From assembly GCA_017134815.1 (NCBI GenBank), contig CP071032.1, positions 496,001 to 560,000 of the forward strand: a stretch of DNA of 64,000 nt, read 5' to 3'. A program made the translations under genes and the position numbers. Positions 20,047 through 38,433 of this stretch are shown here, in pieces. Source of the DNA: Lentisphaerota bacterium. GTDB taxonomy: Bacteria; Verrucomicrobiota; Lentisphaeria; Victivallales; Victivallaceae. Numbering within the stretch: position 1 is the stretch's first letter; every line of letters starts with the position of its first letter. Under the pieces are notes generated by a model, which was given only the letters and a program-made list of their open reading frames with translations, was not told where the DNA came from and searched no databases.

Positions 20047-20097
20047 ATTGCTGTATTTTAAGTCCTATATTTAATGAAAAGAAGAGCAGGGAGGTTT

Positions 20098-22239
20098 ATG
20101 CCTAAATTAAGCATTAAAGTAAAGATAGCTGTGATTATGATAGCGCTTTGCGGAGTAGCTTTTTTTGCCGCATATCTGCTTACTTATGTAAACCTCAGGC
20201 GCCTCGGCCGATATACTCTCAGTACCTATGAAAAACTGGGAAGAAGCGCTCTCGATGAATCTTCCAAGTCACTGGTAGTGCATTCTATAGAGGAATTAAA
20301 ATCACTCTCTTCAGGACAAAGCGCCATTATAAATGTTCAGCTCAAACGCATCTCTGATGAACTTGCTGTGCTGGCCAATTTATCCGCTCGCTGCCTCGCG
20401 CCTGACAGTACGGACTTTAAATCAGTTAAAGATTTTGTTTCAGATAAAAAACCAGCCAACATTTATGATTATTCTATTATTGAGGATTTTGGAGTTCTCA
20501 AAAGACAGTCGAGTTTTTCACCAGCAGACAGAAAACTTGCGACCCTCCACCCTTTGTTGAAGTTTATTTTTGGGAATCATGAAAATCTTGATCAGATATA
20601 CGTGTCTTTGAGCAGTGGCAGTACAGTCAGTTTCCCGTGGCGTAAGACGCCTCATGGCTACAACCCTCACACCAGACCCTGGTATACTGCGGCCATAAAG
20701 GCCGATGGCAAAGCAGTCTGGGTCGGTCCCTATGTATCCGCATCTTTTAATCAACTGGTAATAACCTGCTCTAAAGCGATAAAAAATGAATACGGAAAAA
20801 TTGTCGCGGTGGCGGCTCTGGATATGGACGTAGAAAAATTAACCAATGAATTTTTAAAGCGCCAGTTGAGCCGCGAGAGTACTGCATTTATTATCGATTC
20901 TGAAGGAAATATCCTGGCTCGCAAAGGAATGGAAAGTTCAGGACTCAACTGGCAGCAGGAATACAAAAAGGAAAACCTTTTCAACACTAACATTAAAGCT
21001 CTGAAAAAAGTTGCTGTAAAAATGATAGGTGGGGAATCCGGAATTCATAACATCAACCTTCCCGGCGAGCCCAGCCTGTATATCGCATATTCCCCGATAC
21101 CAGAGGCTGAATGGAGTTTTGCCGTAGTTATCAGGACTGCCACTCTGATGGAAGCCGCTCAGAAAACTGATTTAATGATCAAACAGAATGTACTTGATCA
21201 CAGCAACTATATCCGTAAGTTTTTGCATAGAAATTCCATAGATTACCTGATACTCGCAATTGCAGCGGTTTGCGGGATACTGGCCAGCAGTATGATTCTT
21301 TCCCATAAAATTACCTCACCAATCATGCTGCTGAAACAGAAAGCTCAGGATATCGGAAAAGGAAACTTCAAGAGCAAAATTCACCTCAAAACCGGCGATG
21401 AGCTGGAGAGGCTTGATAATACCTTTGACAATATGACCCGTGAGATCCAGACTTATATGAGGGATATAGCAGCCAGCGTCAGCGAGCGTGAAAAAATGGA
21501 GCAGGAGATGATGGTGGCTGCTGATATTCAACAGGCTATGCTTCCGGAGGATATTGATGAGAATGATCGTTTTACCCTCAAATCATTTATGAAACCGGCC
21601 AAGGAAGTTGGCGGGGATTTCTATAATTTTTTTATGGTGGACAAGGACCATTTGTTTTTCTGCATTGGCGATGTTTCCGGCAAGGGCATGGCAGCATCAA
21701 TGTTCATGGCCCAGGCTACTACACTGGTTGGTCATGAAGGGCGAACCGGTAAAACTCCTGATAAAATGCTGCACAGTCTTAATATCGCTCTTTCCAAGAA
21801 AAACGATACCTGCATGTTTGCCACGGTTTTTTGTGGTATACTGGACTTGAATACCGGAGTGGTGACTTTCAGCAATGCCGGTCATACTCCGCCGATTTTC
21901 CTGAAACGTGGGACTGCCAGACTTCTGCAGTTAAACAACGGTATTGCAGTCGGTCCGTATCCAGTGCCTGCTCAAACTTTTAAACAGGAAAAAGTTAAAC
22001 TTGATCCAGGAGACTCCCTGCTGCTTTATACAGATGGGATAACCGAGGCTAATAACCCTGAAGGTTCTTTTCTTGGGCTTGAGGGATTATTGAGAATATT
22101 CTCAAACAGGACAACAAAACATCTGAAACCGATTATGCGGTTGCTTAACGGTCTTGATAATTTTTGTCAGCAGGAAGTTCAGACTGATGATATTACTATG
22201 GTTGCAATAACATATATTGGGAAAGAAAAGCATTCATGA
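20098..22239 (+). CDS. Membrane sensor with HAMP and SpoIIE-type PP2C phosphatase domain (first of tandem pair)
   Basis: A 713-residue signalling protein. The ATG at 20098 lies 3-8 bases after GGGAGG, so the earlier ATG at 20074 is rejected. Layout: transmembrane helix about 9-30, an extracytoplasmic sensor (about 31-380) with a Cache-like pattern (HTRPWYTAAIKADGKAVWVG), second helix LAIAAVCGILASSMIL, HAMP (about 403-455), then a SpoIIE/RsbU-like Mn-dependent Ser/Thr phosphatase. The phosphatase keeps its metal-binding acidic residues in EVGGDFYNFF, IGDVSGKGMAAS, LYTDGITEANN and VQTDDITM. Such proteins dephosphorylate anti-sigma-factor antagonists in partner-switching pathways in response to external ligands. 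It overlaps the next gene by 4 bases (ATGA). Confidence 0.9.
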   Translation: MPKLSIKVKIAVIMIALCGVAFFAAYLLTYVNLRRLGRYTLSTYEKLGRSALDESSKSLVVHSIEELKSLSSGQSAIINVQLKRISDELAVLANLSARCLAPDSTDFKSVKDFVSDKKPANIYDYSIIEDFGVLKRQSSFSPADRKLATLHPLLKFIFGNHENLDQIYVSLSSGSTVSFPWRKTPHGYNPHTRPWYTAAIKADGKAVWVGPYVSASFNQLVITCSKAIKNEYGKIVAVAALDMDVEKLTNEFLKRQLSRESTAFIIDSEGNILARKGMESSGLNWQQEYKKENLFNTNIKALKKVAVKMIGGESGIHNINLPGEPSLYIAYSPIPEAEWSFAVVIRTATLMEAAQKTDLMIKQNVLDHSNYIRKFLHRNSIDYLILAIAAVCGILASSMILSHKITSPIMLLKQKAQDIGKGNFKSKIHLKTGDELERLDNTFDNMTREIQTYMRDIAASVSEREKMEQEMMVAADIQQAMLPEDIDENDRFTLKSFMKPAKEVGGDFYNFFMVDKDHLFFCIGDVSGKGMAASMFMAQATTLVGHEGRTGKTPDKMLHSLNIALSKKNDTCMFATVFCGILDLNTGVVTFSNAGHTPPIFLKRGTARLLQLNNGIAVGPYPVPAQTFKQEKVKLDPGDSLLLYTDGITEANNPEGSFLGLEGLLRIFSNRTTKHLKPIMRLLNGLDNFCQQEVQTDDITMVAITYIGKEKHS

Positions 22240-24341
22240 GCAAAATGTCATTAAAATCAAAGATCATTTTCTATATAACCGCAATACCGGTGCTTTCCTT
22301 TGCAATTATTTGTGTTCTGACAATAATGAATATGCGTGACCTTAAAGAATTCGCCTTTGACTGCAGCAAAGACCTTGCCGAAAACGTGGCAAAAGAAAGT
22401 ATGAGTGTTTTAGAAAAAGAGTCCAGGCGGGAACTGAAAATGTTATCACAGGGGCAGGCGATGATTACCAGTCTGCAGCTGCAGCGTATTGATGCAGAGG
22501 TTACCAATATTGCCTGCTTGTATAAACTGATATACAACGGAGTTTATACTGCAGAAAACAACCGTTTCACCGAGGCATTCTCAACTAAGTTTATATTTGA
22601 TGACAGTTTTTCGTATTTTACATTACCGGCAGGAGTCAGCATAAAAAGTATTGAGCCTGACATCATGAGAATGTCGATGCTTAGAAACGCATTTAAATGT
22701 CTGTGTGTCTTTAATGAATACACCAGTGGAATAGGTATTGCTCAACCTGATGGACTGTTTTTCAAATTCAGCTGGTTTCCAATTCCACAGGATTTTGATC
22801 CCAGGGGGCGTATCTGGTACAAACAGGCTATTAAAAACCCAGATAAAAATATCTGGACCGGGCCGTATATAGCAATTGACAGCAATCGCAAGGTGCTAAG
22901 CTGCTCCAGAGCAGTTCAGGTAGACGATAAAATTGTGGCGGTGGTCTGCGTGGATGTTCGTCCCAGGGCTATTTCCGAAGACTTCATTGTAACTCTGGGG
23001 ACCGGCGGATTTGGTTTCATTATTGATCAAAACGGTAAGCTTATCGCCAAGGAACGCAATATCGATAAACAACTCTTGTGGAATGTTCCCCAGCGTGTAA
23101 AGCAAAACTTTGAAACCGAGATGAGCAAATTGAAACTGCCCGACAGCAAGTTCAGAACCATAAGCTTCATGGGGGAACCCATTGAATTTTACCTGACTCC
23201 ACTGAATATGACAAACTGGACAGTTGGCATTGCTATGCCACGAAACCTGATTACTGAAAAGGCCAGACGCAGCGGCCATAATATCAGAGATGAAAATTTA
23301 ATTTACAGTTTCTATATGGATAGAAATATTCAAAGTAAACTCCTGCTGTATATTGCCTCAGGGATCTTTATAATTTCCCTGATTCTGCTGTGCAGTCTGT
23401 ATATTGCAAAGCGGTTCTGTATTCCGATAATGAAACTGGAGCAGGGTGCGGAACGAATAGGAAAGGGAAAGCTGGATGAAAAACTTTATATTAAAAGCGG
23501 CGATGAACTGCAGGATCTGGCTGAAACATTCAATAAAATGTCGGCAGAACTCAAAGGAAGGATCCGGGATTTCAAGGAAAATCTCACGATTAGAGAGCAG
23601 ATAGACCGGGAGCTTAATGTTGCAGCCAAGATACAGCGCTCAATTCTGCCGGACAATTTTCCGGCATTTCCGGATCGCGATGAAATTGAAGTTTATGCTG
23701 AAATGAAGCCGGCAAGAGAGGTTGGCGGAGATTTCTATGACTTTTTCTTTATTGACAACAAACACCTGTTCTTTACTATTGGCGATGTTTCAGGGAAAGG
23801 GTTGCCAGCAGCTTTATTTATGGTCAGAGCCCTGACTCTGCTCAGGCACGAAGCGCTTGAAAATTCGCCGCCGGACAAAATTTTGTCCAGTGTGGGAAAT
23901 GAGCTTGAAAAGAACAATCACTCCTGCATGTTTATTACCGGGATCTGCGGTATTCTTGATACTGAAACCGGGGAGATGCTGCTGGCAAACGCAGGGCACA
24001 ACCCTCCATTCATAAGAAAGAGGAAAAAAATTGAGACACTAGAACTTCCAACCGGAATGATTATCGGGGCGTTACCATTGACAAATGGTGAAATCACGAT
24101 AAAGTCCTATAAATTAGAAAAGGGTGATACCTTGTTTTTATATACTGATGGAATCACTGAAGCTTTCAACAAAGATGGAGCCCAGTTTGGAGTTGACCGG
24201 CTTAAAGCTATTTTACAGCGCTTTGCCGGGGCGAATCCCCATGAAGTGGTTAATGCGGTGTCAACAGCAGTAAATGACTTTGTCGATAAAGCTCCGCAAT
24301 CTGATGACATAACTATGCTTACGATTAAATATTATGGGTGA
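22236..24341 (+). CDS. Membrane sensor with HAMP and SpoIIE-type PP2C phosphatase domain (second of tandem pair)
   Basis: A 701-residue paralogue of the upstream protein with the same layout: transmembrane helix about 9-30, extracytoplasmic Cache-like sensor (DPRGRIWYKQAIKNPDKN, about 188-205), second helix YIASGIFIISLILLCSLYIA near 368, HAMP about 390-442, and a phosphatase domain with EVGGDFYDFF, IGDVSGKGLPAALF, LYTDGITEAFN and PQSDDITML, so the metal site is complete. The sensor part is clearly diverged from that of its neighbour while the catalytic part is well conserved, which suggests duplication followed by ligand specialisation. Start and stop overlap both neighbours (4 bases upstream, 8 bases downstream), so translation of all three is likely coupled. 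Confidence 0.9.
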   Translation: MSKMSLKSKIIFYITAIPVLSFAIICVLTIMNMRDLKEFAFDCSKDLAENVAKESMSVLEKESRRELKMLSQGQAMITSLQLQRIDAEVTNIACLYKLIYNGVYTAENNRFTEAFSTKFIFDDSFSYFTLPAGVSIKSIEPDIMRMSMLRNAFKCLCVFNEYTSGIGIAQPDGLFFKFSWFPIPQDFDPRGRIWYKQAIKNPDKNIWTGPYIAIDSNRKVLSCSRAVQVDDKIVAVVCVDVRPRAISEDFIVTLGTGGFGFIIDQNGKLIAKERNIDKQLLWNVPQRVKQNFETEMSKLKLPDSKFRTISFMGEPIEFYLTPLNMTNWTVGIAMPRNLITEKARRSGHNIRDENLIYSFYMDRNIQSKLLLYIASGIFIISLILLCSLYIAKRFCIPIMKLEQGAERIGKGKLDEKLYIKSGDELQDLAETFNKMSAELKGRIRDFKENLTIREQIDRELNVAAKIQRSILPDNFPAFPDRDEIEVYAEMKPAREVGGDFYDFFFIDNKHLFFTIGDVSGKGLPAALFMVRALTLLRHEALENSPPDKILSSVGNELEKNNHSCMFITGICGILDTETGEMLLANAGHNPPFIRKRKKIETLELPTGMIIGALPLTNGEITIKSYKLEKGDTLFLYTDGITEAFNKDGAQFGVDRLKAILQRFAGANPHEVVNAVSTAVNDFVDKAPQSDDITMLTIKYYG

Positions 24342-26022
24342 TAAAAACTGTTCTGTGCTTTTTCTGGAGTTAAACTCCTCTTATTCTCATTCCATGCTTT
24401 CATACTGCATGTTGCGGGCTCTTGCTGAAAAGAATGCGGCTGAATGGAGCTGGCACCATGTGGAAACCACCCTGAAAACACCTGTAAATGAAACACTTAA
24501 AAAAGTTTATACTATAGAGCCAACGTTAATAATAGCTACCGCCTACATATTTAATATCGACTTATTATGCCTACTTGCAGCTGAAATAAAGAAAAAGCTG
24601 ACAGAGTGCATGATTTTCTTTGGCGGTCCGAATTTTATTGGCAGCAACCACCAGTTTTTGCTGGACAACCCGCAAATTGATGGGGTATTGCGCGGAGATG
24701 AAACATCGGTGCCGGAATTACTTAATGCAGTCAAGGCGGATTTTGACTGGAAAAATGTAAGTGGTTTGTGCAGAGTGGAGCAGGGGAGGTATTTTGACAA
24801 TGGTATTGCGGAATTCAAAGGCGAACTTGATGAACTCCCATCGCCTTATGTTACTCCTTATCTGCATGATAATAAACCTTTTTACCAGCTGGAAACCAGC
24901 CGGGGCTGCCTGGGCAGCTGTACATTCTGCACGAGCGCTGTCCATAAAGCAGTAAAAACTTTTTCCATCGACCGAATAAAAACTGATCTTGAAGCCTTAA
25001 GGTCCAGAGGGTTTCGTGAGATACGCCTTATAGACAGGACTTTCAACGAAACCGCCGGGCGAGCAGTTGCCATGCTGAAGCTTTTTCGTGATAACTTTCC
25101 TGAAATGAAATTTCACTTGGAAATTCACCCGGCCAGACTGCAATCTGAGGTAAAAGAACTGCTTTGTTCAATGCCTGAGGGACAACTTCATATTGAGGCT
25201 GGAATTCAGAGTTTTGACCCTGTAGTTTTGAAAAATATTAAGCGTTCTTCAGCTGATGGGATCCCGGAACGTGGCCTGAAGGAGTTGGTTGAAATGCAGA
25301 ATTTCGAAGTTCATGCAGATTTGATTTCCGGTCTGCCGGGGCAAACTCTAGCTTCATTAGAGCAAGATATAAACAGAATGCTGCAAATAGGTCCGGCCGA
25401 AATACAGCTTGAGCCGCTAAAAATACTGCCTGGCACCCCAATTCTCAATCAGCTGAAGCAGTGGGATATTAATTATATGGTTGACCCGCCGTGGCAGGTT
25501 TTGAGTTCTGCAACAATGTCAAAAGATGATATTGACCAGTCCTGTCTCTATTCTCATGTACTTGACTCCTATTATAACCATCAGGCCTTGTGCAATGTTT
25601 TCAGTTACTGTTCAAAAAATATGTCTGATTTCTTCACCAGATTCAGCTCCTGTTTTAAAAAATACAGGTCTTCATCAGGAAAACTGCCTTTGGAGAGAAG
25701 ATTTGACATTCTTGAAGATTATTTAGAATCTCGTTCAGCATTAAAGTCATTGCAGCTTTGTCGTTTCGGCAAACTGGCGGCTGGGTTTAAAGTTAATGGC
25801 TTAAATCTGTCAAAGCGGCCTGCAGGGAAGGGGGGGAAATGTATCTGGAGTAATGGAAACACTCAAAAGGCAGTAAGAGTTTGCCAGATGAAGTGTAATT
25901 TCAATGCCGCAGATTACTGGCTTGACAGAAAGTGTAATAACCTGAAAACAGGTGATTTCACTTATATATTTTTAATGCACTACGGAAGAAACGTATGTAA
26001 AATATTACAAAAAAACACCTAA
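24334..26022 (+). CDS. B12-binding-domain radical SAM protein (DUF4080-type)
   Basis: A 562-residue protein with an N-terminal cobalamin-binding-like Rossmann domain (about 1-150: ELNSSYSHSMLSYCMLRAL, FGGPNFIGSN) followed by a radical SAM core. The [4Fe-4S] cluster cysteines are in SRGCLGSCTFCTS near residues 188-200, the canonical C-x3-C-x2-C; the later EAGIQSFDP and DLISGLPGQT motifs are those of B12-radical SAM and MiaB/HemN-like enzymes. The C-terminal 180 residues match the layout that I associate with the DUF4080 extension. The reaction is unknown; tailoring, methylation or cofactor modification are options. It overlaps the upstream phosphatase gene by 8 bases, so it is likely part of that operon even though no functional link is known. 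Confidence 0.82.
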   Translation: MGDKNCSVLFLELNSSYSHSMLSYCMLRALAEKNAAEWSWHHVETTLKTPVNETLKKVYTIEPTLIIATAYIFNIDLLCLLAAEIKKKLTECMIFFGGPNFIGSNHQFLLDNPQIDGVLRGDETSVPELLNAVKADFDWKNVSGLCRVEQGRYFDNGIAEFKGELDELPSPYVTPYLHDNKPFYQLETSRGCLGSCTFCTSAVHKAVKTFSIDRIKTDLEALRSRGFREIRLIDRTFNETAGRAVAMLKLFRDNFPEMKFHLEIHPARLQSEVKELLCSMPEGQLHIEAGIQSFDPVVLKNIKRSSADGIPERGLKELVEMQNFEVHADLISGLPGQTLASLEQDINRMLQIGPAEIQLEPLKILPGTPILNQLKQWDINYMVDPPWQVLSSATMSKDDIDQSCLYSHVLDSYYNHQALCNVFSYCSKNMSDFFTRFSSCFKKYRSSSGKLPLERRFDILEDYLESRSALKSLQLCRFGKLAAGFKVNGLNLSKRPAGKGGKCIWSNGNTQKAVRVCQMKCNFNAADYWLDRKCNNLKTGDFTYIFLMHYGRNVCKILQKNT

Positions 26023-26037
26023 CGACAAGGAGCCGCA

Positions 26038-27162
26038 ATGAACACCAGGAAACTGCTCGCAGCAGCAATAACAGTTTTTACAGCTTCAGCTTGTTTTTCA
26101 TTAACCGTGGGAGATAAAGCCCCTGAGCTTAGAATAAAGAAATGGGTGAAGGGGAAACCGGTAAAAATAACAGCCGGAAAAGGTAAAAAAGTATTTGTCA
26201 TTGAATTCTGGGCAACCTGGTGCAAACCTTGCAAAATGTCAATCCCACATCTAAATATCCTGCAGCGTAAGTATAAAAAACAAGGACTTGTTATTGCAGG
26301 AATAAGTACTGAAACACCTGAGGTAATCAGTAAATATCTTAAAGGGCAGGGGTTGGCTGATTACAGTTTTGGAGCCGATGATAAAATGAAAACTTCCGGA
26401 GCCTACATGAAGGGAGTCAGCGGAATACCAGCCGCATTCATAATCGGCAAATCCGGAAGGGTTGTCTGGATAGGGCATCCGCTGGAAGTTGAACCTGTAC
26501 TCAAAAGAATTTTTGCCGGAAAATTTGATATGCACAAAGAGCAGCATGAACGTAGAGAAAATAAAAAATTGAAAGCTGCCTTTGCAAAACGCGACTATCA
26601 AGCAGCACTGCAACTCACTGATGAACGTCTTCAGGAAAACCCCGGAGATCCCAAATATGTTTCTTTAAAAGCCTTCATTTTATTCTCTATGGGCAGGGCG
26701 GCTGAATCATTGAAATACGTTAATAAAATGATAGAAGCCTACCCTGAGAATCTGAAGTTACTAAAAGTTAAGGTGTTTATTCTTAAAAAGTTAAACATGA
26801 ATAAAGAACTTGATCTATGCTATGCAGAGTGCATTGATAAATATTCTAATCCATTGGAATTAAACAGCTTGGCATGGGATTTAATAAGCAGAAAGTTTGG
26901 CACAGCCAAGCTTAAACTGGCTTTACGTGCAGCCTGTAAAGCCTATGAAGCAGAAAAGTATCTGAACCCTGCAGACAAGGCCGTTGTAGGCAATACGCTC
27001 GCCAGAGTTTATTATCTGGTTGGCCGGCCGGACAAGGCTGTCGCTGTTCAAAAAGAAGCTTGTTTTATTTTTAAGAAATATAAAAGCCAAGAGTATAGAC
27101 GCGCACAGTTGAACTTGAAATATTATCTGGAAGCTTATTCCATTGGTCAGACGATCAAATAA
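26038..27162 (+). CDS. Exported TlpA/ResA-like thioredoxin with TPR domain
   Basis: A 374-residue protein with a signal peptide (LLAAAITVFTASACFS, cleaved about residue 22), a thioredoxin-like domain (about 23-165) with active site WATWCKPCK near residue 57-65 and the cis-Pro loop GVSGIPAAFII, and a C-terminal helical region (about 175-370) with tetratricopeptide-like units (QAALQLTDERLQENPGDPKY, AAESLKYVNKMIEAYPEN). It should act as a periplasmic disulfide reductase, as TlpA/ResA proteins do in cytochrome maturation or oxidative-damage repair; the TPR part would bind partner proteins. The ATG follows AAGGAG by 7 bases and lies 15 bases after the radical SAM gene, so it closes that operon. 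Confidence 0.87.
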   Translation: MNTRKLLAAAITVFTASACFSLTVGDKAPELRIKKWVKGKPVKITAGKGKKVFVIEFWATWCKPCKMSIPHLNILQRKYKKQGLVIAGISTETPEVISKYLKGQGLADYSFGADDKMKTSGAYMKGVSGIPAAFIIGKSGRVVWIGHPLEVEPVLKRIFAGKFDMHKEQHERRENKKLKAAFAKRDYQAALQLTDERLQENPGDPKYVSLKAFILFSMGRAAESLKYVNKMIEAYPENLKLLKVKVFILKKLNMNKELDLCYAECIDKYSNPLELNSLAWDLISRKFGTAKLKLALRAACKAYEAEKYLNPADKAVVGNTLARVYYLVGRPDKAVAVQKEACFIFKKYKSQEYRRAQLNLKYYLEAYSIGQTIK

Positions 27163-27886: not shown

Positions 27887-28621
27887 ATGGAAATTCAAAA
27901 TATTTATGATAACCTGGCATTTTTTTCTGAATACAAGAAATTGAGAGATAATGCCAGAGGGTTCAACAATGAGATAGAGCAGCCGGCTGTCCGCTCTCTG
28001 GTCGAAAATATGAAAGACAAAAAAGTTCTGGACATAGGTTGTGGTTTCGGAAATTTTTGTCGCTATGCTGCCGATCAGGGAGCGTTGAGTGTTCTTGGCA
28101 TTGATCCATCTAAAAATATGATCAGGGAAGCTGCATCCACTACACTTTCCAGTAACATTCAATATCTCTGTCTGCCGGTAGAGACTTTTTCGACGAACCT
28201 GGCAAGTTTTGATATTATAGTTTCGTCGCTGGCTTTTCATTATGTAAAGGAATTTGACAGTCTCGTTCAAAATATTGAGAAGTGGCTCAAGAAGTCAGGG
28301 CAGCTGGTATTTTCTGTTGAGCACCCGATTTGCACTGCCTGGCCGGAAGGATCATTAAAAAAAGATAATGCAGGGAAAAGTTTTCATCCCGTGTATAATT
28401 ATCGTGATGAGGGACAATTTGAACAAACCTGGTTCGTTGATGGGGTCAGAAAATATCACAGAAAGTTATCTACCTACATCAACACTCTTCTCGAACATGG
28501 TTTTGCTGTTGAGCGAGTGCTGGAACCAATGCCCTCAGATGAACAAATTGCTCAATACCCCAAACTGAAAATCCATAGGGTTCGCCCTCCCCTTTTAATT
28601 ATTTCAGCAAAAAAGCGCTGA
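27887..28621 (+). CDS. Class I SAM-dependent methyltransferase
   Basis: A 244-residue methyltransferase of the Methyltransf_11/UbiE-like group. Motif I VLDIGCGFGNFCRYAA lies at about residues 46-61, the acidic end of the second strand at GIDPSKNMI (about 70-78), motif II/III at FDIIVSSLAFHYVKE (about 107-121), and the C-terminal region ends with RPPLLIISAKK, the final strand of the fold. The ATG follows TGGAGA. The substrate is unknown; homologues with this C-terminus act on small molecules. It sits in an AT-rich stretch, converging with the minus-strand glycosyltransferase cassette (24 bases between stops). Confidence 0.87.
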   Translation: MEIQNIYDNLAFFSEYKKLRDNARGFNNEIEQPAVRSLVENMKDKKVLDIGCGFGNFCRYAADQGALSVLGIDPSKNMIREAASTTLSSNIQYLCLPVETFSTNLASFDIIVSSLAFHYVKEFDSLVQNIEKWLKKSGQLVFSVEHPICTAWPEGSLKKDNAGKSFHPVYNYRDEGQFEQTWFVDGVRKYHRKLSTYINTLLEHGFAVERVLEPMPSDEQIAQYPKLKIHRVRPPLLIISAKKR

Positions 28622-28645: not shown

Positions 28646-29689
28646 TCAAGTGAACATATCAAAGAAGACCTCGACATGCAAACCAAATATTTTATACTTT
28701 ACGGGTAGAGCTTTCAAGGTTCTCAGAATAACCACCACCCGGTTTTTCTGTCGCTTGATAAAGCTCTTTTCGTTAGGGTGTAATTGTGCTTCTTTGGTTA
28801 TCTTCATAATTACGGCCACTTTTTCTACCCCATCAGGGAATTTCACCATTGCCTTGCCACCTTCAGCTACTCCTTTCGTCAAAAATCTTGACGGCAGAAA
28901 TGCTTTTATGTGCATATTCTGGTCGGTGGCAATTGCCAGCAGTTCTTTGTTTTTTGTAACAAACTCTTTTTCATCAACATTTATTTGCACAATTGTGCCT
29001 CCGGTTGGAGCGAGAATATCACATATTTTATGTCTTTGCTTGAGATGGAGAATCTCCTTATTCAAACTCCTTATTTTTGAGTCGTAAAGTTCTTCCATTC
29101 TGATGTTATAGTTAAATTTACTCTCGGCTATTTTTTTGTTGATCTCATGCACCTGAATTATTGCTTCATTTAAGTCTATTCTAGCCTGTTGTGCTTCAAA
29201 AAAAGTGCTTAGTCCTCTTTTGCGCAGACTGGATATGGATTTGTAATTTGTTTTTATTACCTGCAGGTGCCTGATTGCTTCTGTTTTCATTTTAGCCAAA
29301 TGCTCCAGCTCAGGATTCTTTGATGCCAGTTTTTTGCCATTGAGCATATCGATTTCCTTTTCAATATACAGAATTTCATTTTTATATTCCGGAGCATCAA
29401 GCTGAATCAGTTTCTGCCTGGGCTTTACTTTATCTCCAACTCCAATAAATACCCGGTCAACAAATAAGTCGAAAGGAGATCTGATTTCAATTTTGTTGAA
29501 TGAAACAAAGCCTTCGGCTTTGGGTATGAAATGTTCTTCAAAGAACATGTATGAGAAATAAATGACTGGGCTCATGATTATGATAACCAGCAAATACCAC
29601 TGCATTTTCGCGACCTGCCGTTTCCCTGCAGAGTAACTTTTTAAAAATGCTGCTGCCGTATTTTTTTTATTAAACTTTAAAGCCGCCAT
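28646..29689 (-). CDS. HlyD-type membrane fusion / adaptor protein
   Basis: A 347-residue adaptor. The ATG at 29689 has AAGGAGG directly upstream; an ATG 13 codons earlier would overlap the previous gene and is rejected. Layout: cytoplasmic N-terminus, one transmembrane helix (WYLLVIIIMSPVIYFSYMF, about 30-48), a barrel-sandwich half (VFIGVGDKVKPRQKLIQLD), a coiled-coil hairpin (about 110-215), the second half (ICDILAPTGGTIVQINVDEKE) and a beta-barrel. This is the HlyD/EmrA fold that bridges inner and outer membranes in export systems, and in polysaccharide systems (Alg44-type) it works with a synthase. It is the last gene of a three-gene unit and starts 11 bases after the glycosyltransferase stop codon. 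Confidence 0.87.
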   Translation of the reverse strand: MAALKFNKKNTAAAFLKSYSAGKRQVAKMQWYLLVIIIMSPVIYFSYMFFEEHFIPKAEGFVSFNKIEIRSPFDLFVDRVFIGVGDKVKPRQKLIQLDAPEYKNEILYIEKEIDMLNGKKLASKNPELEHLAKMKTEAIRHLQVIKTNYKSISSLRKRGLSTFFEAQQARIDLNEAIIQVHEINKKIAESKFNYNIRMEELYDSKIRSLNKEILHLKQRHKICDILAPTGGTIVQINVDEKEFVTKNKELLAIATDQNMHIKAFLPSRFLTKGVAEGGKAMVKFPDGVEKVAVIMKITKEAQLHPNEKSFIKRQKNRVVVILRTLKALPVKYKIFGLHVEVFFDMFT

Positions 29690-29700
29690 CTCATTCCTCC

Positions 29701-31026
29701 TTAGTGGGTTTTTTTTATGACCCACCACGGAGCCATAGAAGTGTCTTTATGAATCTTCAAAAGTGTTTCGCAAATTGCAGCCACAACAGTCCATAAGCGC
29801 ATTATAAACTGATACAAAGGCATTAACAGAATATATGGAATAAAAACTAAATTCTTAGCTTTTTTTTCCGGGGTGATAAGCAGATACAGCATAAACATTG
29901 CCAGTGACCAGAAAAGATAATAAAGATAGCTGATCAACAGCACAGAAATAAAGAAAACATGCTTATAAAACATTAAAAGGTAGAGAGAGTACAGTACTAT
30001 CAGCAAAGGCACCAGCATACAAAAACCAATGTCGTACCACAATATACCCAGAAACTTCTTCCAGCCCAGCATTTTCGGCCTGAGTATCTTCCGGTAGCGC
30101 TTTAAAATTATATAATAGAGATCCCCATCCCAACGCAACCTTTGCTTGAACAACGAACACATTGTATCAGGAACGTCTGTATAGGCTACTGCGTTATTAT
30201 CGTGAACAATCTTCAGATATGGATAGCGTTTGAAATATCCTTTTATCCTGATGATAAGGTCCAGATCCTCTGCTGTTCCGTTTCTCCAGCCACCGATTTT
30301 TTTAATAAAGCTTTTTCTGAATGCACCACAGCCGCCAGAAACATTATTTAAAATTCCCATTCCTGAAAGTCCGGTACGCGCCATTTGGAATGTGAACATA
30401 TACTCAAGAGTTTGAAAGCGAGTTGCCAGACTTTTATGACAGTTTCTGACTTTAAAGTTACAAGAAACGGCGATAACATTTTGATCTACAAAATTCTGAG
30501 TCACAACGGATACAAAATCATTGCTGCATGAAGAATCTCCGTCAAGCATAATAAGGATTTCCCCTTTAGCCAGACTGAGCCCCAGGTTAATTGATGAAAC
30601 CACCCCTCCCCTGACCTGTTTGGGTATAACTTTAATATGGCGCCTGGGTGTATTTATGAAGGCTTGGCGGGCAACCTCCGCAGCTTTCAAGGTTTTACTG
30701 TTATGCCGGATATCATCAATTATCAGTAATATTTCGATATTACCTCTGTAGCGTTGTTCAACAAGGGTGGAAACAGTGCGCAGGATGTCATTTCCTTCGC
30801 TGTAACACTTTACAACGCAGGTTACATCCGGGTAGAAAGGAACCAGAATTGGAGTACCAAAGGTTCTTTTAAAGTAGATTCTAAAAGCGCTTAAAATTAT
30901 CAGGGCATAAAGCGGGAATTCAATGAAAATAAGCACGGGGAAAAATGACAGAAAAAACTGCCAGAATTCACTGTTAACCAGATAAAGGCTTATTACATGG
31001 TTGAGTTCGTCTAAGAAACTGTTCAT
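29701..31026 (-). CDS. Processive family 2 glycosyltransferase, membrane-bound
   Basis: A 441-residue synthase-like enzyme of the cellulose/hyaluronan/chitin synthase group. After an N-terminal transmembrane helix (about 20-45), the GT-A domain shows VVKCYSEGND, the metal- and UDP-binding MLDGDSSC (D-x-D, about 162), the general-base pair in GTAEDLDLIIRIKGY (about 255), and QRLRWDGD (about 297), the Q-x-x-R-W motif of processive enzymes. Four or five transmembrane helices follow, forming the likely translocation channel. It would build and extrude a polysaccharide of unknown sugar. Its start overlaps the stop of the upstream zinc-ribbon gene (ATGA) and an HlyD-type adaptor follows, so the three proteins probably act together. 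Confidence 0.9.
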   Translation of the reverse strand: MNSFLDELNHVISLYLVNSEFWQFFLSFFPVLIFIEFPLYALIILSAFRIYFKRTFGTPILVPFYPDVTCVVKCYSEGNDILRTVSTLVEQRYRGNIEILLIIDDIRHNSKTLKAAEVARQAFINTPRRHIKVIPKQVRGGVVSSINLGLSLAKGEILIMLDGDSSCSNDFVSVVTQNFVDQNVIAVSCNFKVRNCHKSLATRFQTLEYMFTFQMARTGLSGMGILNNVSGGCGAFRKSFIKKIGGWRNGTAEDLDLIIRIKGYFKRYPYLKIVHDNNAVAYTDVPDTMCSLFKQRLRWDGDLYYIILKRYRKILRPKMLGWKKFLGILWYDIGFCMLVPLLIVLYSLYLLMFYKHVFFISVLLISYLYYLFWSLAMFMLYLLITPEKKAKNLVFIPYILLMPLYQFIMRLWTVVAAICETLLKIHKDTSMAPWWVIKKTH

Positions 31027-32366
31027 TTCTCAGTAGCAATTTCCGCTATTAAGGTTTTTGCTTTTACCTGTCTCTGACTGCCTTTTGCTGCTGTATAGGG
31101 AAAAAGTTTTACAGCCGTATCTGCAGCTGTCGGGCATTCCAATTCGTCAAAAAATGTTAAAACGTTTTTTTCGATTGCTTTCAATTGTTTCTTATCAGTC
31201 CCGGGCAATAAAAACCAGAAATATCCCGTAAGGTTTTTCGTCGCAATTGCAGTAGGCTCGAAAATGCTTCGAAGCTTCTTAGCAATAGAACTGATTATTT
31301 CATAACTGTCCCAGTCAACCTTTACCCCCAGAATGCTGAACATGTATTCATCATGGTGAACCCTCTGCATTTCCAGAAACCAGTCAAGTATATCATAAAA
31401 ATATGGTAAATGAACATAATTATCTTTATCTCGCATGTGAAGCATGGAACTTGCAGTACCATTTAATATCTGATCCCGGCCGAGATCAGTCAGATTATAA
31501 GTGTAAATTGAGTGTTTAGTTAAGTTTTCCGGCAATGAGTGCTTTTTGCAGTCTATACAAAATGCCAGAGGTTTACTTTCAGTATGATATTCTCCACATT
31601 CAAAACACACACCCGATTCAAGGGTTTTGTCATAATCCTCTCCAAAGTGATTCAGCTTAGCTCTGCATTTAGGACAGATCAGTTTGTCCTCAGTTACAAA
31701 ATCATCTTCTGGTCCCACCATGCCGCATGTGAAACAGTGCAGAAAATCCACAGTTTTGATATTGACACTGTTGCATGAAGGGCAACGTTCTGAAAAACAC
31801 AGACGCGCAGAAAAACAGTGAGGACACGTAAATATCCTGTCAATTAACCTGTTTTCAGATAGAATATTTTTGCCTGACAGTTCCGTAAATACGTATTCTT
31901 GATTATCATCTTCATTATCAAATAGTTTCAGAAGAGGATAGTTATAATACAGTCTGTTATCCGGGGCGGTTTCTGGGTGGATTTCAATATCCCTTCTGCA
32001 GTATAAATACGCAAGCATCTTCCGCTTCCATGAAGAAGCTCTATAATCTTTCAATGAGCTGAAGTTCCGATTTATATTATCAATCGACTTATTGTTCATA
32101 TCATGGTTGTCAAAGTTTCCATCAATAAGCTCTTTCCTGAGATCAGGATGATCTGAAAACACAGGGGTTGCATAATATCTGTCTGATCTTCTTAAGCCTC
32201 TAATAATATCTTCGCATTGTTTTAAAGAAAAAAAACTTATAAATACAGCGGTGAAATTACGCTTGTCAGCGAGGCAGTCTGATAATGAATTATATATTTC
32301 AGCTTCATTATATTGTTTACGTAAAACAGAAAAATCGAATTTATTATCACAAATAAGAGCAACCAT
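31023..32366 (-). CDS. Multi-zinc-ribbon regulatory-type protein (TackOD1-like)
   Basis: A 447-residue soluble protein. The first 110 residues look like a receiver-type Rossmann domain without obvious phosphoacceptor conservation. The middle (about 180-275) is a chain of zinc-ribbon pairs: CPHC, CPSC, CFTC, CPKC, CFEC and CIDC. The last 120 residues (from EYMFSILGVKVDW) have alternating strands and helices that resemble a nucleotide-cyclase-type fold without a GGDEF motif. The combination reminds me of proteins annotated with the TackOD1 metal-binding output domain, often found beside family 2 glycosyltransferases; this comes from memory. It would sense or regulate the synthase. The ATG has AGGATC upstream; it overlaps the synthase gene by 4 bases. 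Confidence 0.7.
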   Translation of the reverse strand: MVALICDNKFDFSVLRKQYNEAEIYNSLSDCLADKRNFTAVFISFFSLKQCEDIIRGLRRSDRYYATPVFSDHPDLRKELIDGNFDNHDMNNKSIDNINRNFSSLKDYRASSWKRKMLAYLYCRRDIEIHPETAPDNRLYYNYPLLKLFDNEDDNQEYVFTELSGKNILSENRLIDRIFTCPHCFSARLCFSERCPSCNSVNIKTVDFLHCFTCGMVGPEDDFVTEDKLICPKCRAKLNHFGEDYDKTLESGVCFECGEYHTESKPLAFCIDCKKHSLPENLTKHSIYTYNLTDLGRDQILNGTASSMLHMRDKDNYVHLPYFYDILDWFLEMQRVHHDEYMFSILGVKVDWDSYEIISSIAKKLRSIFEPTAIATKNLTGYFWFLLPGTDKKQLKAIEKNVLTFFDELECPTAADTAVKLFPYTAAKGSQRQVKAKTLIAEIATEK

Positions 32367-32889: not shown

Positions 32890-32972
32890 TGGTGCGCGGG
32901 GCGGGACTCGAACCCGCACTCCTAAGAACCAGATCCTAAATCTGGCGCGTCTGCCAATTTCGCCACCCGCGC
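32890..32972 (-). tRNA. tRNA-Leu (anticodon UAG)
   Basis: Read on the minus strand, the acceptor stem is GCGCGGG (5' end at 32972) with CCCGCGC (32894-32900 complement), discriminator A and an encoded CCA. The anticodon arm CCAGATTTAGGATCTGG carries UAG (complement of 32936-32938). There is a long variable arm of the class II type between it and the T arm, whose loop reads GGGTTCGAGTCCC. It decodes CUA leucine codons. Confidence 0.95.
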
Positions 32973-33195: not shown

Positions 33196-34476
33196 ATGCT
33201 TGATACTGAAAAAGATAACAGAAAAATAGTTGAACGTGCGTTGCTGGTTGGAATTCACGAGCAGTCTACTCCTCCTGCTGAAGCAAGGGAACACCTTGAT
33301 GAACTGGAAGAGCTTGTCGACAATCTTGATATTGGAGTCATCCATAAAGAAATAGTAAATTTAAAAACTATCAGTTCCAGGTATTATGTAGGTAGCGGCA
33401 AAGCTGACGAGATTCTTGAAAAAATCAAGGAACTTGAAATCGACTGTCTGGTTTTTGATGCGGAACTTTCCCCATCGCAACAGCGCAACTGGGAAAAACA
33501 TACCAGAATCTGTGTAATTGACCGTCAGGAAGTGATTCTTGATATTTTTGCAAACCGGGCCTCAACAAGAGAAGCTGCTTTACAGGTTCAGCTTGCCAGA
33601 ATGGAATACTCCCTGCCCCGGTTGACCAGGGCATGGACTCACTTGTCGCGGCAGCGTGGCGGGGCCAAGGGAACCAGAGGTGAAGGAGAACAGCAGATAG
33701 AAGTAGACCGCAGGCTGCTTAAGAAAAGCATAAGTGCCTGCAAACGTGAACTTAAAGAGGTCAAAAAGCAACGTGCGACTCAGCGCAAAAGCCGAAAGCG
33801 CCATGAAATGCCGCATGCCGCGATTGTCGGTTATACCAACGCAGGTAAATCGTCACTGCTTAACCGTCTCTCAGGTTCGGAAGTTCTGGTTGAAGATAAA
33901 CTTTTTGCGACACTGGACCCTACCACCAGAAGCATTATCCTGCCTAATAATCAGAAAATGCTCTTGACGGATACAGTTGGGTTTGTCAGGAAGTTACCGC
34001 ATGATCTGGTTGAAGCGTTCAAATCCACTCTGGAAGAAGCTGTACTGGCTGACTTCCTGGTACTGGTACTGGACATCAGCAACCGGCATGTTGAAGAACA
34101 CTGGGAAACTACCATGTCAGTACTTAAAGAACTGGGTGCTGAGGACAAAGATATTCTTATTGTATTCAACAAAGTAGATAAACAGAAAGACCCTGTAATG
34201 CTGGCCAGGGCAAAAGGCTTATTTCCTCACAGTGTTTTTATTTCAGCAGTAACAGGCGAAGGCATTGAGGAATTGAATTCCAGAATGATTAAATACACCA
34301 GGGTTGTCTCAAAAGTGCTGCACCTGAAAATTCCTCCACAGCGCCATGATATTGCCGCACTGGCTTACAGCAGAGGCAAGGTACTGGAGTCGAGTTATGA
34401 CGATGACGGTCATTTACGGCTGACAGTAAATATTAATTCGGCTTTAGAAAAACTATTTCTGGATTTTGTTGCTTAA
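33196..34476 (+). CDS. hflX: Ribosome-associated GTPase HflX
   Basis: A 426-residue GTPase that binds the 50S subunit and splits stalled or hibernating ribosomes, often induced by heat. The N-terminal HflX domain (about 20-200) contains the glycine-rich ALQVQLARMEYSLPRLTRAW and GAKGTRGEGEQQIEVDRR motifs. The G domain has G1 VGYTNAGKSSLLN (about 211-223), G2 LFATLDPTTRS, G3 LTDTVGFVRKLPHDLVEAFKS, G4 FNKVDK and G5 SAVTGEG, all intact. The start ATG has no strong ribosome-binding site. It is preceded by 220 bases containing only the likely tRNA-Leu promoter on the other strand; I see nothing else there. The next gene begins 51 bases downstream. Confidence 0.96.
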   Translation: MLDTEKDNRKIVERALLVGIHEQSTPPAEAREHLDELEELVDNLDIGVIHKEIVNLKTISSRYYVGSGKADEILEKIKELEIDCLVFDAELSPSQQRNWEKHTRICVIDRQEVILDIFANRASTREAALQVQLARMEYSLPRLTRAWTHLSRQRGGAKGTRGEGEQQIEVDRRLLKKSISACKRELKEVKKQRATQRKSRKRHEMPHAAIVGYTNAGKSSLLNRLSGSEVLVEDKLFATLDPTTRSIILPNNQKMLLTDTVGFVRKLPHDLVEAFKSTLEEAVLADFLVLVLDISNRHVEEHWETTMSVLKELGAEDKDILIVFNKVDKQKDPVMLARAKGLFPHSVFISAVTGEGIEELNSRMIKYTRVVSKVLHLKIPPQRHDIAALAYSRGKVLESSYDDDGHLRLTVNINSALEKLFLDFVA

Positions 34477-34527: not shown

Positions 34528-37500
34528 ATGACAAGGTGTTTGCCATTATATCTGCTGGGGACTTTCATATTTGCATATTTTTCACTGCAGCCCGCAGTAT
34601 CGGGCTACGAAGACGATGACTTTGCTCCTTTGAAGGCTTGGCGTCAGGGCTATAGTTGCTCTGACAAAGGCGAGCAGAACAAAGCTAAAGGGAATAACGC
34701 TGAGGCTCTCCGGTGGTTCCGGAAAGCCTTAAACTATTATGAAGCGGTAAGCAGGGCAAGGCCTGACTGGAATCAGAACATTATTGGCAAACGCATTAAA
34801 TACTGCCGGCAGGAAATAAACAGTCTTCTATCCTGTACAGCCCCCTCGCCGACTCTGAAAAATAACACATCTTCCGAATACTCTTCAAAATCGTCAGTTT
34901 CATCTTCAGCCCTCAATGAGCTCAGTTCTGAAAACGAAGACCTGAAAACTGAGTTAAAAAAGTACAAGGCAAAGCTTTTCAGTACTATGGTTGATCTTGA
35001 TGATACCAGACGTGAATTGAAGCAGAAAGCAGACAGTGCCGATCAAATTGAAAACATGATGCGTGAAAAAAGATTACTTAACCATAAATATAACCTGCTT
35101 CTGGAAAAATATGAATCCCTGCAGACCAGGCTGTCAGAGCCGGACTCAGAGAAAACCCGCCTGAAGAATCAGTTGCTTGAAGAAAAGATGCAGGCGGATA
35201 TTATAAATCAGCGTTTGAAAATGCAAAAACGTAAAGAGAATGAACTCCGTTCGGAAATGGCAGAGCTTTACCGGCTGAAAACAGCTCAGAAAATGAAACT
35301 TCAACAACTGAAAAACTCGCTCAAATCTGCCCAACGCAGAGTAAATACGTTCAAAAAACAACTTAGTGTCGCTGCTATTGAAAAACTCGGTTTGACTGAC
35401 ACTGTCAACCAAACCAAAACCCGGGTGGAACAAGCCCTGAAGAGACTGGCACAGAAAGATGCTGAATTAGAGAAACTTAATAACTGGCTGCTCGAACTCA
35501 GGGAAAAAGGAGGAAATCAGTCGAAGCTGAATAAGGAAATTGCAGAAAGATCAAGAATCATCAGCAATAAGTATGATAAACTGCAGAAAGAATATGATGA
35601 GCTAGCCGGACATAAACAGGCACTTGCTGATAAACTGCGCTCAGCCAATATGGAATATGTTCAGATAAAAAAGACGATGCAGAATATTGATCAGCAGAAA
35701 AAACTGCTGTTTCAGGATTATCAGCTTCTCCAAAAAAAATATTATGAACTAGAGTTGTGTGAACAGTCTAATGCAAAAGAGCTTGGACAAACAAGAGACA
35801 AAAACAGTAAACTTGAAGCTCAAATCAACTTATTGAGTAAACGGTATGACAAGTTGAAAGGCAGGCTGAACCGCAGAATGAGTTCAGAGTACCAGAACAT
35901 TCTGGATCTGAAGAGCAAAAACCGTAAACTGCTCAAGGAAATTGAACGGGATAAAATTGCTTATGGCCAAATTTCTGAAAAATGCCGAAACAAAGAAAAA
36001 AGTATCAACAGATTAACTGTCAAACTGGAAAGTATAAAAAAGGATTTTCGAGCGCTCTCCCTCCAAAATAAAGTCCTGATGGAGGATAAACTTAAACTGA
36101 AAGAAATATCGCAAACCTGCCTGGAACTGCAGCAAAAGAATAAAGCTTACCAGAATGACCGTAAGGTAATTGACTCATTAAAGTCGGAAAAGGATCATCT
36201 GCTGAACAGGTTACAGGAAGTAGCTATTCTAAAAAAGCAGATAATGGGCTTGGAGAAGCAGAATCAAGCACTCTCCGATGACTGCAGTAATTTAAAAATG
36301 TCGATGAACGACTTCCTTAAGTTACGCGAACAGCTGAGAAGTGCAAAAGAAAGCATTACTGGATTAAGGCGTTTGCAGCAGGTAAACACCAGTCTGAACA
36401 AAGATTTATCAAAACAAACTGAAAAGTGTGCTCTTTTAGAGGAAAAATTAAAACTTGTCACGGCCCGCCAACCTGATTTAGTCAAGCTTCAAGCTGAAAA
36501 TGCCGGTCTTAGTACTACTATCCAGGTTTTAAACAAACAGTTAGATGCACTGAAAAAGCAACAGACAGATTTGCTTAAACAGAAAAATTCAAATATAGAT
36601 TTGAAAGCCAGGCTGGCAGCTTTGGTTGCTGAAAATGCAGAAAATGAACAGCAATGCCGTCTGGCTTTGAAACAGCAGCAACTGCTTAAAGATGAGATTA
36701 AAACCAACTGCGCTGTTATAGCTGAAAAAGACAGGATCATGCAATTGATGCAGAATCAAATACGGCTCCAGGGCAATAAGCTGGTGATGTTAAATCAATT
36801 AAGAAAAAATAATGCCCTATTAGAGGAAAAAATAGAGCGTTTAACTGCTCAAAATCGTATACTTGCAGCAAAACAGCTGAATAAGAGAAAACTGGTTAAT
36901 CAGTTTAAGGCTATGAATAATAATTATGCCGGACTGGAAAAGAAATATAAAGATACAGTTGACCAGCTGACTGCGTTGAAGAGTGATAAAGCAGAAAAAT
37001 TAAAAAGGTTTGAGCAGCTTACCAGTGAACTTGATAGATTGCGGAAAGCCGGTAATAAGAATATGAAAAAATTCGGAGCCGAAGTTACTGCTCTAGAAAA
37101 TGTCAGTAAACACAAAGATCAAAGAATCACCGCACTGCTGGAGAACATAAAGGACCTCAATAGAACAATTCATAATAATGAAAAGACAAAAAATGAACTG
37201 GTACTGAAGGTGAAAGCTGAGTACAGAATGGATATAGATCGGCTTGAAAATGCAAAACTAAAATTAAAAAAACGCCTGATTGATTTAAACGGTATAGCTG
37301 ACAAAACCGCGATTAACCTCACTGCGCTTGAAAATAGAAACAAGCTGCTGGTATCACGTCTGGAAAAATTATCAAACCGCAACAAGTATCTAGAAAATAA
37401 GAATAAACAGCTGGCTGAAAAAGTTCCAGAGCAACACGTGGTCAATGCTGCCACACCCTCGCAACTAAAGAAGCTTCTAGACAGCGGAATCAAGGCAGAA

Positions 37501-38433
37501 CATAGTGGTTCCGAAGATGTTGCAATATGGCATTATCGCAAATACCTGGAAACAAATCCTAAAAATGCTGAAGTGAACCGACGCCTCGGGACCATTTTAA
37601 TAGGACGAGAACAGTTAACAGAAGCTGCCGCCTTGCTGCAACGAGCTTACCTGCTGAATCCGGATGAACAAAATACAGCCTTAAATTACGGAAGAATTCT
37701 GCTGATGCAGAATAAACCCGGTAACGCCTGTGCCGTTCTGGAAAAAGCAATCAGGCATCACCCGGACAATTATGCATTATTGGTTGAGTTGGCAAAAGCT
37801 CTTGTAAAAACCGGCAGCAGCAGGGAAGCGGCAAAGCTTTTAAATACCGCGGTAAAACTGCAGCCTGAAAAACCTGGGGCCTATCTCGAACTGGCAAAAG
37901 TCCAGCTAAATTCAAATCAGCGCAAACTGGCTGTCAGGCATTATAGAAAAGCCAGAGAGCTCGGAGCTGTTCCGGATCCATTACTTGAAGAGAAGCTGAA
38001 AAAACAGCTTGATGATAATTCGGAAATGACCGCCTTCCTGAACAAAGCTGCCACAGAGGCTGAAACCGGCAATGACTGGGTCTCCGCCGCCTGGTACTTC
38101 AATCAGCTGCTTCAGCTGAACCCTGACAACCGGTTATTCAGATTGAAGCTGGCTGCGACTCAGCTCATTCAGAAACAGTTCAAGAGCGCCAGCAAAACTA
38201 TTGCTCCTCTTAAGTCAACTTACTGCGGTGCAATCATTTTTTCTGCCGCTCAAGCCGGCAGCTGTGATTTTGCTGCCGCAAATACTTGGATAAGCAAAGG
38301 CTTAAATCTGCCTAAAGATCATAAAATAAATGCTTTAAAACCACTTTTAGAGGTCTACATCAAGCGCTCAAGACAAAAAGGTTCTGCCGTCAAACTGAAA
38401 CAATATCTTTCCAGACTGGAGAAAGTAATTTAA
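34528..38433 (+). CDS. Giant exported coiled-coil protein with C-terminal TPRs
   Basis: A 1301-residue protein with a signal peptide (YLLGTFIFAYFSLQPAVSG, ending about residue 25) and no other membrane segment, so it should be periplasmic or surface exposed. Residues 30-100 hold a TPR-like unit (NNAEALRWFRKALNYYEAVS). From about 130 to 965 there is an almost unbroken coiled coil rich in Lys, Glu, Leu, Gln and Asn; a rod of this length would exceed 100 nm if fully extended as one helix. From about 968 onward come TPRs (SEDVAIWHYRKYLETNPKN, LTEAAALLQRAYLLNPDEQ, ACAVLEKAIRHHPDN, REAAKLLNTAVKLQPEK). The ATG follows ACGGAGA. The next gene starts at the base after the stop codon, so the two are coupled. 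No catalytic motif is seen; a scaffold or spacer role is an inference. Confidence 0.85.
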   Translation: MTRCLPLYLLGTFIFAYFSLQPAVSGYEDDDFAPLKAWRQGYSCSDKGEQNKAKGNNAEALRWFRKALNYYEAVSRARPDWNQNIIGKRIKYCRQEINSLLSCTAPSPTLKNNTSSEYSSKSSVSSSALNELSSENEDLKTELKKYKAKLFSTMVDLDDTRRELKQKADSADQIENMMREKRLLNHKYNLLLEKYESLQTRLSEPDSEKTRLKNQLLEEKMQADIINQRLKMQKRKENELRSEMAELYRLKTAQKMKLQQLKNSLKSAQRRVNTFKKQLSVAAIEKLGLTDTVNQTKTRVEQALKRLAQKDAELEKLNNWLLELREKGGNQSKLNKEIAERSRIISNKYDKLQKEYDELAGHKQALADKLRSANMEYVQIKKTMQNIDQQKKLLFQDYQLLQKKYYELELCEQSNAKELGQTRDKNSKLEAQINLLSKRYDKLKGRLNRRMSSEYQNILDLKSKNRKLLKEIERDKIAYGQISEKCRNKEKSINRLTVKLESIKKDFRALSLQNKVLMEDKLKLKEISQTCLELQQKNKAYQNDRKVIDSLKSEKDHLLNRLQEVAILKKQIMGLEKQNQALSDDCSNLKMSMNDFLKLREQLRSAKESITGLRRLQQVNTSLNKDLSKQTEKCALLEEKLKLVTARQPDLVKLQAENAGLSTTIQVLNKQLDALKKQQTDLLKQKNSNIDLKARLAALVAENAENEQQCRLALKQQQLLKDEIKTNCAVIAEKDRIMQLMQNQIRLQGNKLVMLNQLRKNNALLEEKIERLTAQNRILAAKQLNKRKLVNQFKAMNNNYAGLEKKYKDTVDQLTALKSDKAEKLKRFEQLTSELDRLRKAGNKNMKKFGAEVTALENVSKHKDQRITALLENIKDLNRTIHNNEKTKNELVLKVKAEYRMDIDRLENAKLKLKKRLIDLNGIADKTAINLTALENRNKLLVSRLEKLSNRNKYLENKNKQLAEKVPEQHVVNAATPSQLKKLLDSGIKAEHSGSEDVAIWHYRKYLETNPKNAEVNRRLGTILIGREQLTEAAALLQRAYLLNPDEQNTALNYGRILLMQNKPGNACAVLEKAIRHHPDNYALLVELAKALVKTGSSREAAKLLNTAVKLQPEKPGAYLELAKVQLNSNQRKLAVRHYRKARELGAVPDPLLEEKLKKQLDDNSEMTAFLNKAATEAETGNDWVSAAWYFNQLLQLNPDNRLFRLKLAATQLIQKQFKSASKTIAPLKSTYCGAIIFSAAQAGSCDFAAANTWISKGLNLPKDHKINALKPLLEVYIKRSRQKGSAVKLKQYLSRLEKVI

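Follow-up and report, generated by a model that had tools for sequence, protein, structure and literature searches.

A TackOD1/glycosyltransferase/HlyD cassette in a Lentisphaerota bacterium: probable core of a polysaccharide secretion system, apparently decoupled from cyclic di-GMP

We analyzed a 64,000-nucleotide stretch of a Lentisphaerota bacterium genome (GenBank assembly GCA_017134815.1, contig CP071032.1, positions 496,001 to 560,000), referred to here as the window, with regard to a cassette of three adjacent minus-strand genes. These genes encode a protein with a TackOD1 zinc-ribbon domain, a glycosyltransferase family 2 (GT2) synthase, and a HlyD-type adaptor (Table 1). A first-pass annotation of the window had reported these three genes, the overlap between the first two, and the short gap ahead of the third, all of which proved exact to the base. 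It had interpreted the cassette as a self-contained polysaccharide synthesis-and-export unit whose synthase is controlled by an unusual metal-binding protein instead of a PilZ or cyclic di-GMP (c-di-GMP)-binding partner. The adaptor gene was taken to start at the ATG at 29689 because AAGGAGG lies ahead of it, which is a better ribosome-binding site than that of an alternative GTG at 29728 that would yield an N-terminally longer protein.

The product of the first gene scored 184 bits against TackOD1 (PF18551), for which the curated cut-off is 32. The standard form of this family contains five CxxC motifs and one HxxC motif (PMC5847659). All 11 family cysteines were kept in the window protein, and its HxxC was converted to CxxC by the replacement of H211 with C, which explains the six CxxC motifs that had been noticed earlier. 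This cysteine marks the clade of the window. The checked set of zinc ligands was present in 76 of 81 proteins and was the most conserved part of the protein. Regarding the flanks, which the first-pass annotation had called receiver-like and cyclase-like, both assignments were supported in relatives (22 of 67 matched Pfam GGDEF; 4 of 67, including that of locus L087, matched Response_reg, with a best E value of 5.8e-24), whereas the window protein itself had no Pfam Response_reg match. A C-terminal profile of the 67 relatives matched GGDEF crystal structures (including 6zxm) at an E value of 4e-13. In the AlphaFold model (low confidence at residues 1 to 18), an alpha/beta domain at the N terminus is followed by the zinc ribbons and then by a C-terminal domain for which the fold search ranked GGDEF domains highest. 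The receiver domain of L087 matches Response_reg yet lacks the phospho-acceptor Asp, and GG[DE]EF was absent from all 78 aligned relatives having that region; the two flanks are therefore called degenerate. On the basis of sequence and model, the regulator is a degenerate receiver (REC)-triple zinc ribbon-degenerate GGDEF protein. A sequence search for solved structures returned no relative for the TackOD1 protein alone and none for the adaptor.

In the GT2 synthase, D104, D162, D164, D254, D256, Q295, R298, and W299 were invariant among 49 synthases. The AlphaFold model contained a GT-A domain and approximately four membrane helices (one N-terminal and three C-terminal), and its best matches among solved structures were hyaluronan synthases (HAS), followed by BcsA and chitin synthases (Chs), with E values of 1e-16 to 1e-10. 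Given that the active-site residues and the predicted fold both match HAS/BcsA/Chs, processive synthesis with a built-in channel is the best reading of this protein, in keeping with its earlier description as a QxxRW synthase with channel helices; the D-x-D/QxxRW geometry, singled out at the time as decisive, is of the processive-synthase type. The top NCBIfam match was the PgaC/IcaA poly-N-acetylglucosamine (PNAG) synthase (TIGR03937; E value, 1e-37). Assignment to that family was rejected, as the score of 130 bits was far under the cut-off of 422.

To assess recurrence, we used a TackOD1 alignment to scan 84,980 species genomes, which yielded 80 loci (some of the genomes are bins, and their names may be wrong). 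A scan with a single protein as the query (P0003) had found no relatives, and the alignment query was needed. The loci span approximately ten phyla (Bacteroidota, Balneolota, Lentisphaerota, Planctomycetota, Calditrichota, Nitrospirota, Nitrospinota, Aquificota, Caldisericota, Myxococcota, Pseudomonadota, and Aminicenantes). Removal of duplicates and addition of genomes from the phylum of the window gave 80 distinct TackOD1 loci for the linkage count. In 71 of these, the next same-strand gene downstream encoded a GT2, mostly with a gap of -4 to +10 bp; the background, measured among genes four or more places away, was 1 such GT2 in 530. Because the species-genome scan used a motif of the query, it was repeated without that bias on 299 Pseudomonadota genomes. 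Eleven of these carried TackOD1 over the cut-off, and GT2 was directly downstream in 12 of 12 hits (one of which, L119, is the locus already counted as L023). The trio, whose recurrence had been left to be checked, is thus widespread. Together with the TackOD1 identity, the active-site residues, and the fold, this supports the proposal of a polysaccharide synthesis-and-export unit. Within the family of the window, the distribution is patchy, with the synthase present in 3 of 78 genomes. Locus L088 is labeled Candidatus Kuenenia stuttgartiensis, and its cassette nests in Bacteroidota in a genome without GGDEF; the label is probably wrong. One Pseudomonadota genome (G550) contains two divergent TackOD1-GT2 pairs (L126 and L128).

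The adaptor matched HlyD_3 (PF13437) above the cut-off and has one N-terminal membrane helix by hydropathy, consistent with the HlyD type named earlier. The HlyD gene immediately preceded the TackOD1 gene in 56 loci; in others, including the window, it followed one or two genes later. A gene for a GH18-like domain was nearby in 54 loci, mostly as the C-terminal part of a TolC-like OEP channel protein. This domain has LDxEPH and MxY motifs, and its profile matched chitinases (E values up to 1e-4) and a putative glycoside hydrolase (8e-9). The window cassette contains no TolC-like/GH18-like gene, and the term "self-contained" does not hold for it. The nearest relatives (L013, L015, and L023), which share the gene order of the window, also lack the gene in the cassette. 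Since no channel is encoded there, an outer-membrane partner has to be supplied by genes outside the cassette; two TolC-like outer-membrane factor (OMF) genes, both unlinked to the cassette, are present in the window genome. The polymer may be one of N-acetylhexosamine, as hinted by PgaC being the top family of the synthase and by the GH18-like partner in relatives.

The channel proteins varied in architecture. Longer channel/GH18-like proteins (approximately 1,040 to 1,060 amino acids [aa]) of a Planctomycetota/Lentisphaerota type were found at L098 (4050-7238), L094 (3688-6807), L087 (5800-8946), and L017 (10506-13213). The protein of L098 has a PD40 propeller match, and at L017 the channel and glycosidase are encoded as separate genes. 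In the Balneolaceae loci L071, L072, and L085, an extra gene of approximately 110 to 120 aa lies between the HlyD and TackOD1 genes.

For 66 TackOD1 copies, we compared the c-di-GMP-binding inhibitory site (I-site) of the GGDEF-like domain with the GGDEF protein content of the genome (threshold, E value below 1e-20). The I-site triple was defined as RxxD plus R/K at +31, the spacing of the I-site Arg in PleD. Where the genome encodes diguanylate cyclases, 26 of 31 copies had the triple; where it does not, none of 35 had it (Fisher p, 1e-13, uncorrected). RxxD alone separated the two groups less clearly (28 of 31 versus 13 of 35), because RxxD without the +31 residue is retained in one Bacteroidota clade, which accounts for most of the 13. 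These 13 copies weaken RxxD alone as an indicator of c-di-GMP binding. In the Bacteroidota, the TackOD1 domain persists in genomes with no detectable diguanylate cyclase.

In the GT2 tree, all eight relatives placed in the clade of the window have both the triple and diguanylate cyclases, and the window alone lacks both. The sole GGDEF match in the window genome is a 105-aa GGNKF relic (L101, 1489-1806), which suggests that c-di-GMP signaling was lost. PilZ, of which no motif had been seen in the first pass, gave no Pfam match in the three cassette proteins and none in the window genome. The view that a metal-binding protein stands in place of a c-di-GMP-binding partner therefore fits the window copy, in which the I-site is lost and which lacks both a complete diguanylate cyclase and PilZ in its genome, but probably not the family. 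Because most relatives in diguanylate-cyclase genomes keep the full triple, it is more likely, judging from motif and analogy, that the family regulator resembles BcsE or PelD in being a receptor of c-di-GMP in its own right. The wider comparison suggests that the window cassette is a reduced, c-di-GMP-decoupled version representing a derived state.

Several observations weigh against this interpretation. The +31 residue was noticed while viewing the sequences and was not predicted beforehand, and the GT2 tree provides three independent pairs, of which approximately two are concordant and none opposite (sign test p, 0.5). Five copies (L064, L087, L094, L126, and L128) lack the triple despite diguanylate cyclases in the genome. 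Given the post hoc choice of the +31 residue and only three independent contrasts, which reflect few independent evolutionary events, we regard the association as a strong sequence pattern and not yet as statistical proof. The assembly of the window genome is approximately 94% complete (a figure for this genome and not for those reached through other loci), and thus a diguanylate cyclase may have been missed.

On balance, we assign a probability of roughly 70% to the reading in which the three genes supply the inner-membrane core for synthase-dependent secretion of a polysaccharide, with the TackOD1 protein as a c-di-GMP-sensing subunit that is decoupled in the window. The GT2 would polymerize a nucleotide sugar and move the chain across the membrane in a channel of the enzyme itself. 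In the periplasm, the HlyD-type adaptor would take up the chain and hand it over to an outer-membrane channel, which would be the TolC-like protein, usually with a fused GH18-like glycosidase, in relatives and an unlinked OMF in the window organism. The TackOD1 protein would be a soluble cytosolic subunit docking on the synthase, where its degenerate GGDEF domain may gate synthesis. In hosts with diguanylate cyclases, this domain retains the I-site and is likely to bind c-di-GMP, as do BcsE and PelD. The window lineage appears to have lost both c-di-GMP signaling and the I-site; there, the subunit would act independently of c-di-GMP, either in response to a different input or as a factor in assembly. 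The chances seem about even that, more broadly, the loci represent a widespread undescribed secretion system in which the subunit is a c-di-GMP receptor by default and was rewired at least twice, in a Bacteroidota/Balneolota lineage and in that of the window.

Different roles for the TackOD1 protein can be envisaged. It could be a direct metal or redox sensor in which zinc loading switches the synthase and the REC-like and GGDEF-like flanks are only scaffolds, as would be suggested by the conservation of the zinc ligands and by the persistence of the domain where no diguanylate cyclase was found, namely, in Bacteroidota and the window. However, zinc ribbons are commonly structural, which has also been suggested for TackOD1 (PMC5847659), and such a sensor leaves unexplained why the I-site triple follows diguanylate cyclase content; we therefore consider it unlikely. 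That the protein is instead a DNA-binding transcription regulator of the cassette and not a synthase subunit appears very improbable. Although zinc ribbons may bind nucleic acids and archaeal architectures of REC, winged helix-turn-helix, and TackOD1 exist (PMC5847659), no helix-turn-helix family was detected in the 67 relatives, the tight coupling to GT2 over approximately ten phyla suggests stoichiometric co-production, and the nearest architectural analogues, BcsE and PelD, bind c-di-GMP and act after translation.

The remaining alternatives concern the enzyme and the state of the cassette. A single-sequence PDB search with the GT2 returned only soluble or nonprocessive GT2 enzymes, and some lipid-linked GT2 families were among its weak NCBIfam matches, as would be expected if the enzyme makes a glycolipid or adds single sugars and the HlyD protein is part of a different transporter. 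This account is improbable in view of QxxRW, the HAS/BcsA/Chs fold match, and the conserved linkage to HlyD and the channel/glycosidase gene; the neighborhoods examined showed no other transporter gene that was conserved. It is also unlikely that the cassette in the window is what remains of a full system undergoing decay. The loss of the I-site, the missing channel/glycosidase gene, and the patchy distribution in the family agree with decay, but the three open reading frames are intact with catalytic residues, zinc ligands, and the ribosome-binding site preserved, and L013, L015, and L023 lack the same gene yet keep the I-site.

The ingredients of the proposed secretion core are known from other systems. 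XcsA-XcsB-TolC, the cyanobacterial tripartite cellulose secretion system of Maeda 2018, is similar in that its GT2 synthase is combined with a glycosidase and with a HlyD-like adaptor and TolC-like channel, as described in PMC12430437. A HlyD-like adaptor encoded with the synthase is shared by the window cassette, whereas the glycosidase and TolC-like partner have counterparts in the 54 related loci but not in the window cassette. XcsA carries a PilZ or PCR domain, and the Thermosynechococcus genes are scattered; in contrast, the TackOD1 regulator is a separate protein, and its relatives hold the channel in the cassette, usually with the GH18-like domain fused. The c-di-GMP-dependent synthases of the BcsA/XcsA/Alg44 type have PilZ on the synthase or adaptor, unlike the window cassette. 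BcsE is a cytosolic tandem of degenerate REC and GGDEF domains that binds c-di-GMP via the RxxD of its I-site, as the relatives of the window protein might; it differs in that it has an additional domain at its N terminus, has no zinc ribbons separating REC from GGDEF, and works with BcsRQF and a PilZ-bearing BcsA (PMC7439463). The window copy lacks the receptor feature common to BcsE and PelD, in which a degenerate GGDEF domain carries RxxD and, further downstream, an Arg. Unlike the TackOD1 protein, PelD sits in the membrane and has a GAF domain, and the synthase of the Pel system is a soluble GT4. In the BgsA-BgsB mixed-linkage glucan system, BgsB is a membrane-fusion-type protein. PelD is comparable as a degenerate GGDEF receptor of a synthase-dependent system whose domain is lost where c-di-GMP is unused, being missing in streptococci, which do not use c-di-GMP (PMC7112168). 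The two-gene bgsBA operon also includes a GT2 synthase, but c-di-GMP binds a C-terminal domain of BgsA itself, and there is no TackOD1 protein (PMC9495663, PMC5567048). The PgaC/IcaA PNAG system differs in that no PgaA, PgaB, or PgaD is encoded in the cassette. TackOD1 was named in archaea, where its function was called "obscure" (PMC5847659). The archaeal proteins have the same zinc-ribbon domain, often with REC, but lie mostly in type IV pilus loci, with no GGDEF-like domain described (PMC5847659, PMC4858521). We found no literature tying TackOD1 to polysaccharide synthesis or to a TackOD1/GT2/HlyD system in a search that left most subscription journals outside. The architecture thus resembles XcsA-XcsB-TolC and BcsE-regulated cellulose secretion, yet by the features compared the cassette does not appear to be a member of either, because it has no PilZ, no I-site in the window copy, and a separate TackOD1 protein.

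Table 1. Features of the cassette, with positions in the window (pLDDT, predicted local distance difference test)
Feature	Position	Strand	Details and basis
Regulator gene (TackOD1 protein)	31023..32366	-	447 aa; PF18551 E 2.3e-54, model pLDDT 85
Receiver-like domain without phospho-acceptor, residues 1-110	32037..32366	-	Relatives match Response_reg; alpha/beta elements in model
TackOD1 domain, residues 111-292	31491..32036	-	11 family Cys plus C211; ligands suffice for three zinc sites
Degenerate GGDEF domain (no GG[DE]EF), residues 317-447	31026..31418	-	Profile matches to GGDEF structures, fold search
I-site RxxD position, EPTA, residues 370-373 (lost)	31248..31259	-	+31 Arg/Lys replaced by Asn
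ATGA start/stop overlap, regulator/synthase	31023..31026	-	Sequence
GT2 synthase gene	29701..31026	-	441 aa; GT2 Pfam matches, model pLDDT 92.6
DxD, D162-G-D164	30535..30543	-	Invariant in 49 synthases
QxxRW, Q295-R-L-R-W299	30130..30144	-	Q, R, W invariant in 49 synthases
11-base gap, synthase/adaptor	29690-29700	-	Sequence
AAGGAGG ribosome-binding site, adaptor gene	29696..29702	-	Sequence
HlyD-type periplasmic adaptor gene	28646..29689	-	347 aa; HlyD_3 E 4.2e-10, hydropathy

The cassette is isolated. A methyltransferase gene (27887-28621, plus strand) is convergent with it; upstream are a tRNA-Leu gene (32890-32972, minus strand) and then a divergent hflX-like gene (33196-34476, plus strand). 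The G+C content is near that of the surroundings and gives no sign of foreign origin. In light of the patchy distribution, the tRNA-Leu gene, approximately 520 bp upstream, might mark the site of an insertion. A search for riboswitches or other RNAs upstream of the cassette returned nothing except this tRNA, and the counts of predicted promoters and terminators were not above those in shuffles. Elsewhere in the window, two tandem genes for dCache-HAMP-SpoIIE phosphatase receptors (20074-24341) precede genes for a radical-SAM DUF4080 protein (24334-26022) and a thioredoxin-TPR protein (26038-27162). A 1,301-aa protein in the open reading frame list (34528-38433) has long repetitive, apparently coiled-coil stretches.

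If the proposed secretion system is real, it would provide the first bacterial function for TackOD1 and a natural comparison of synthase gating with and without c-di-GMP. The near-universal pairing with GT2 in the sampled bacteria gives this domain a testable role, and the Bacteroidota genomes without a detectable diguanylate cyclase would offer a test of c-di-GMP-free control of cellulose-synthase-like enzymes. The TolC-like channel encoded next to the synthase and the HlyD adaptor in cassettes of this system is also relevant to the tripartite model of cellulose export in cyanobacteria, which is unproven.

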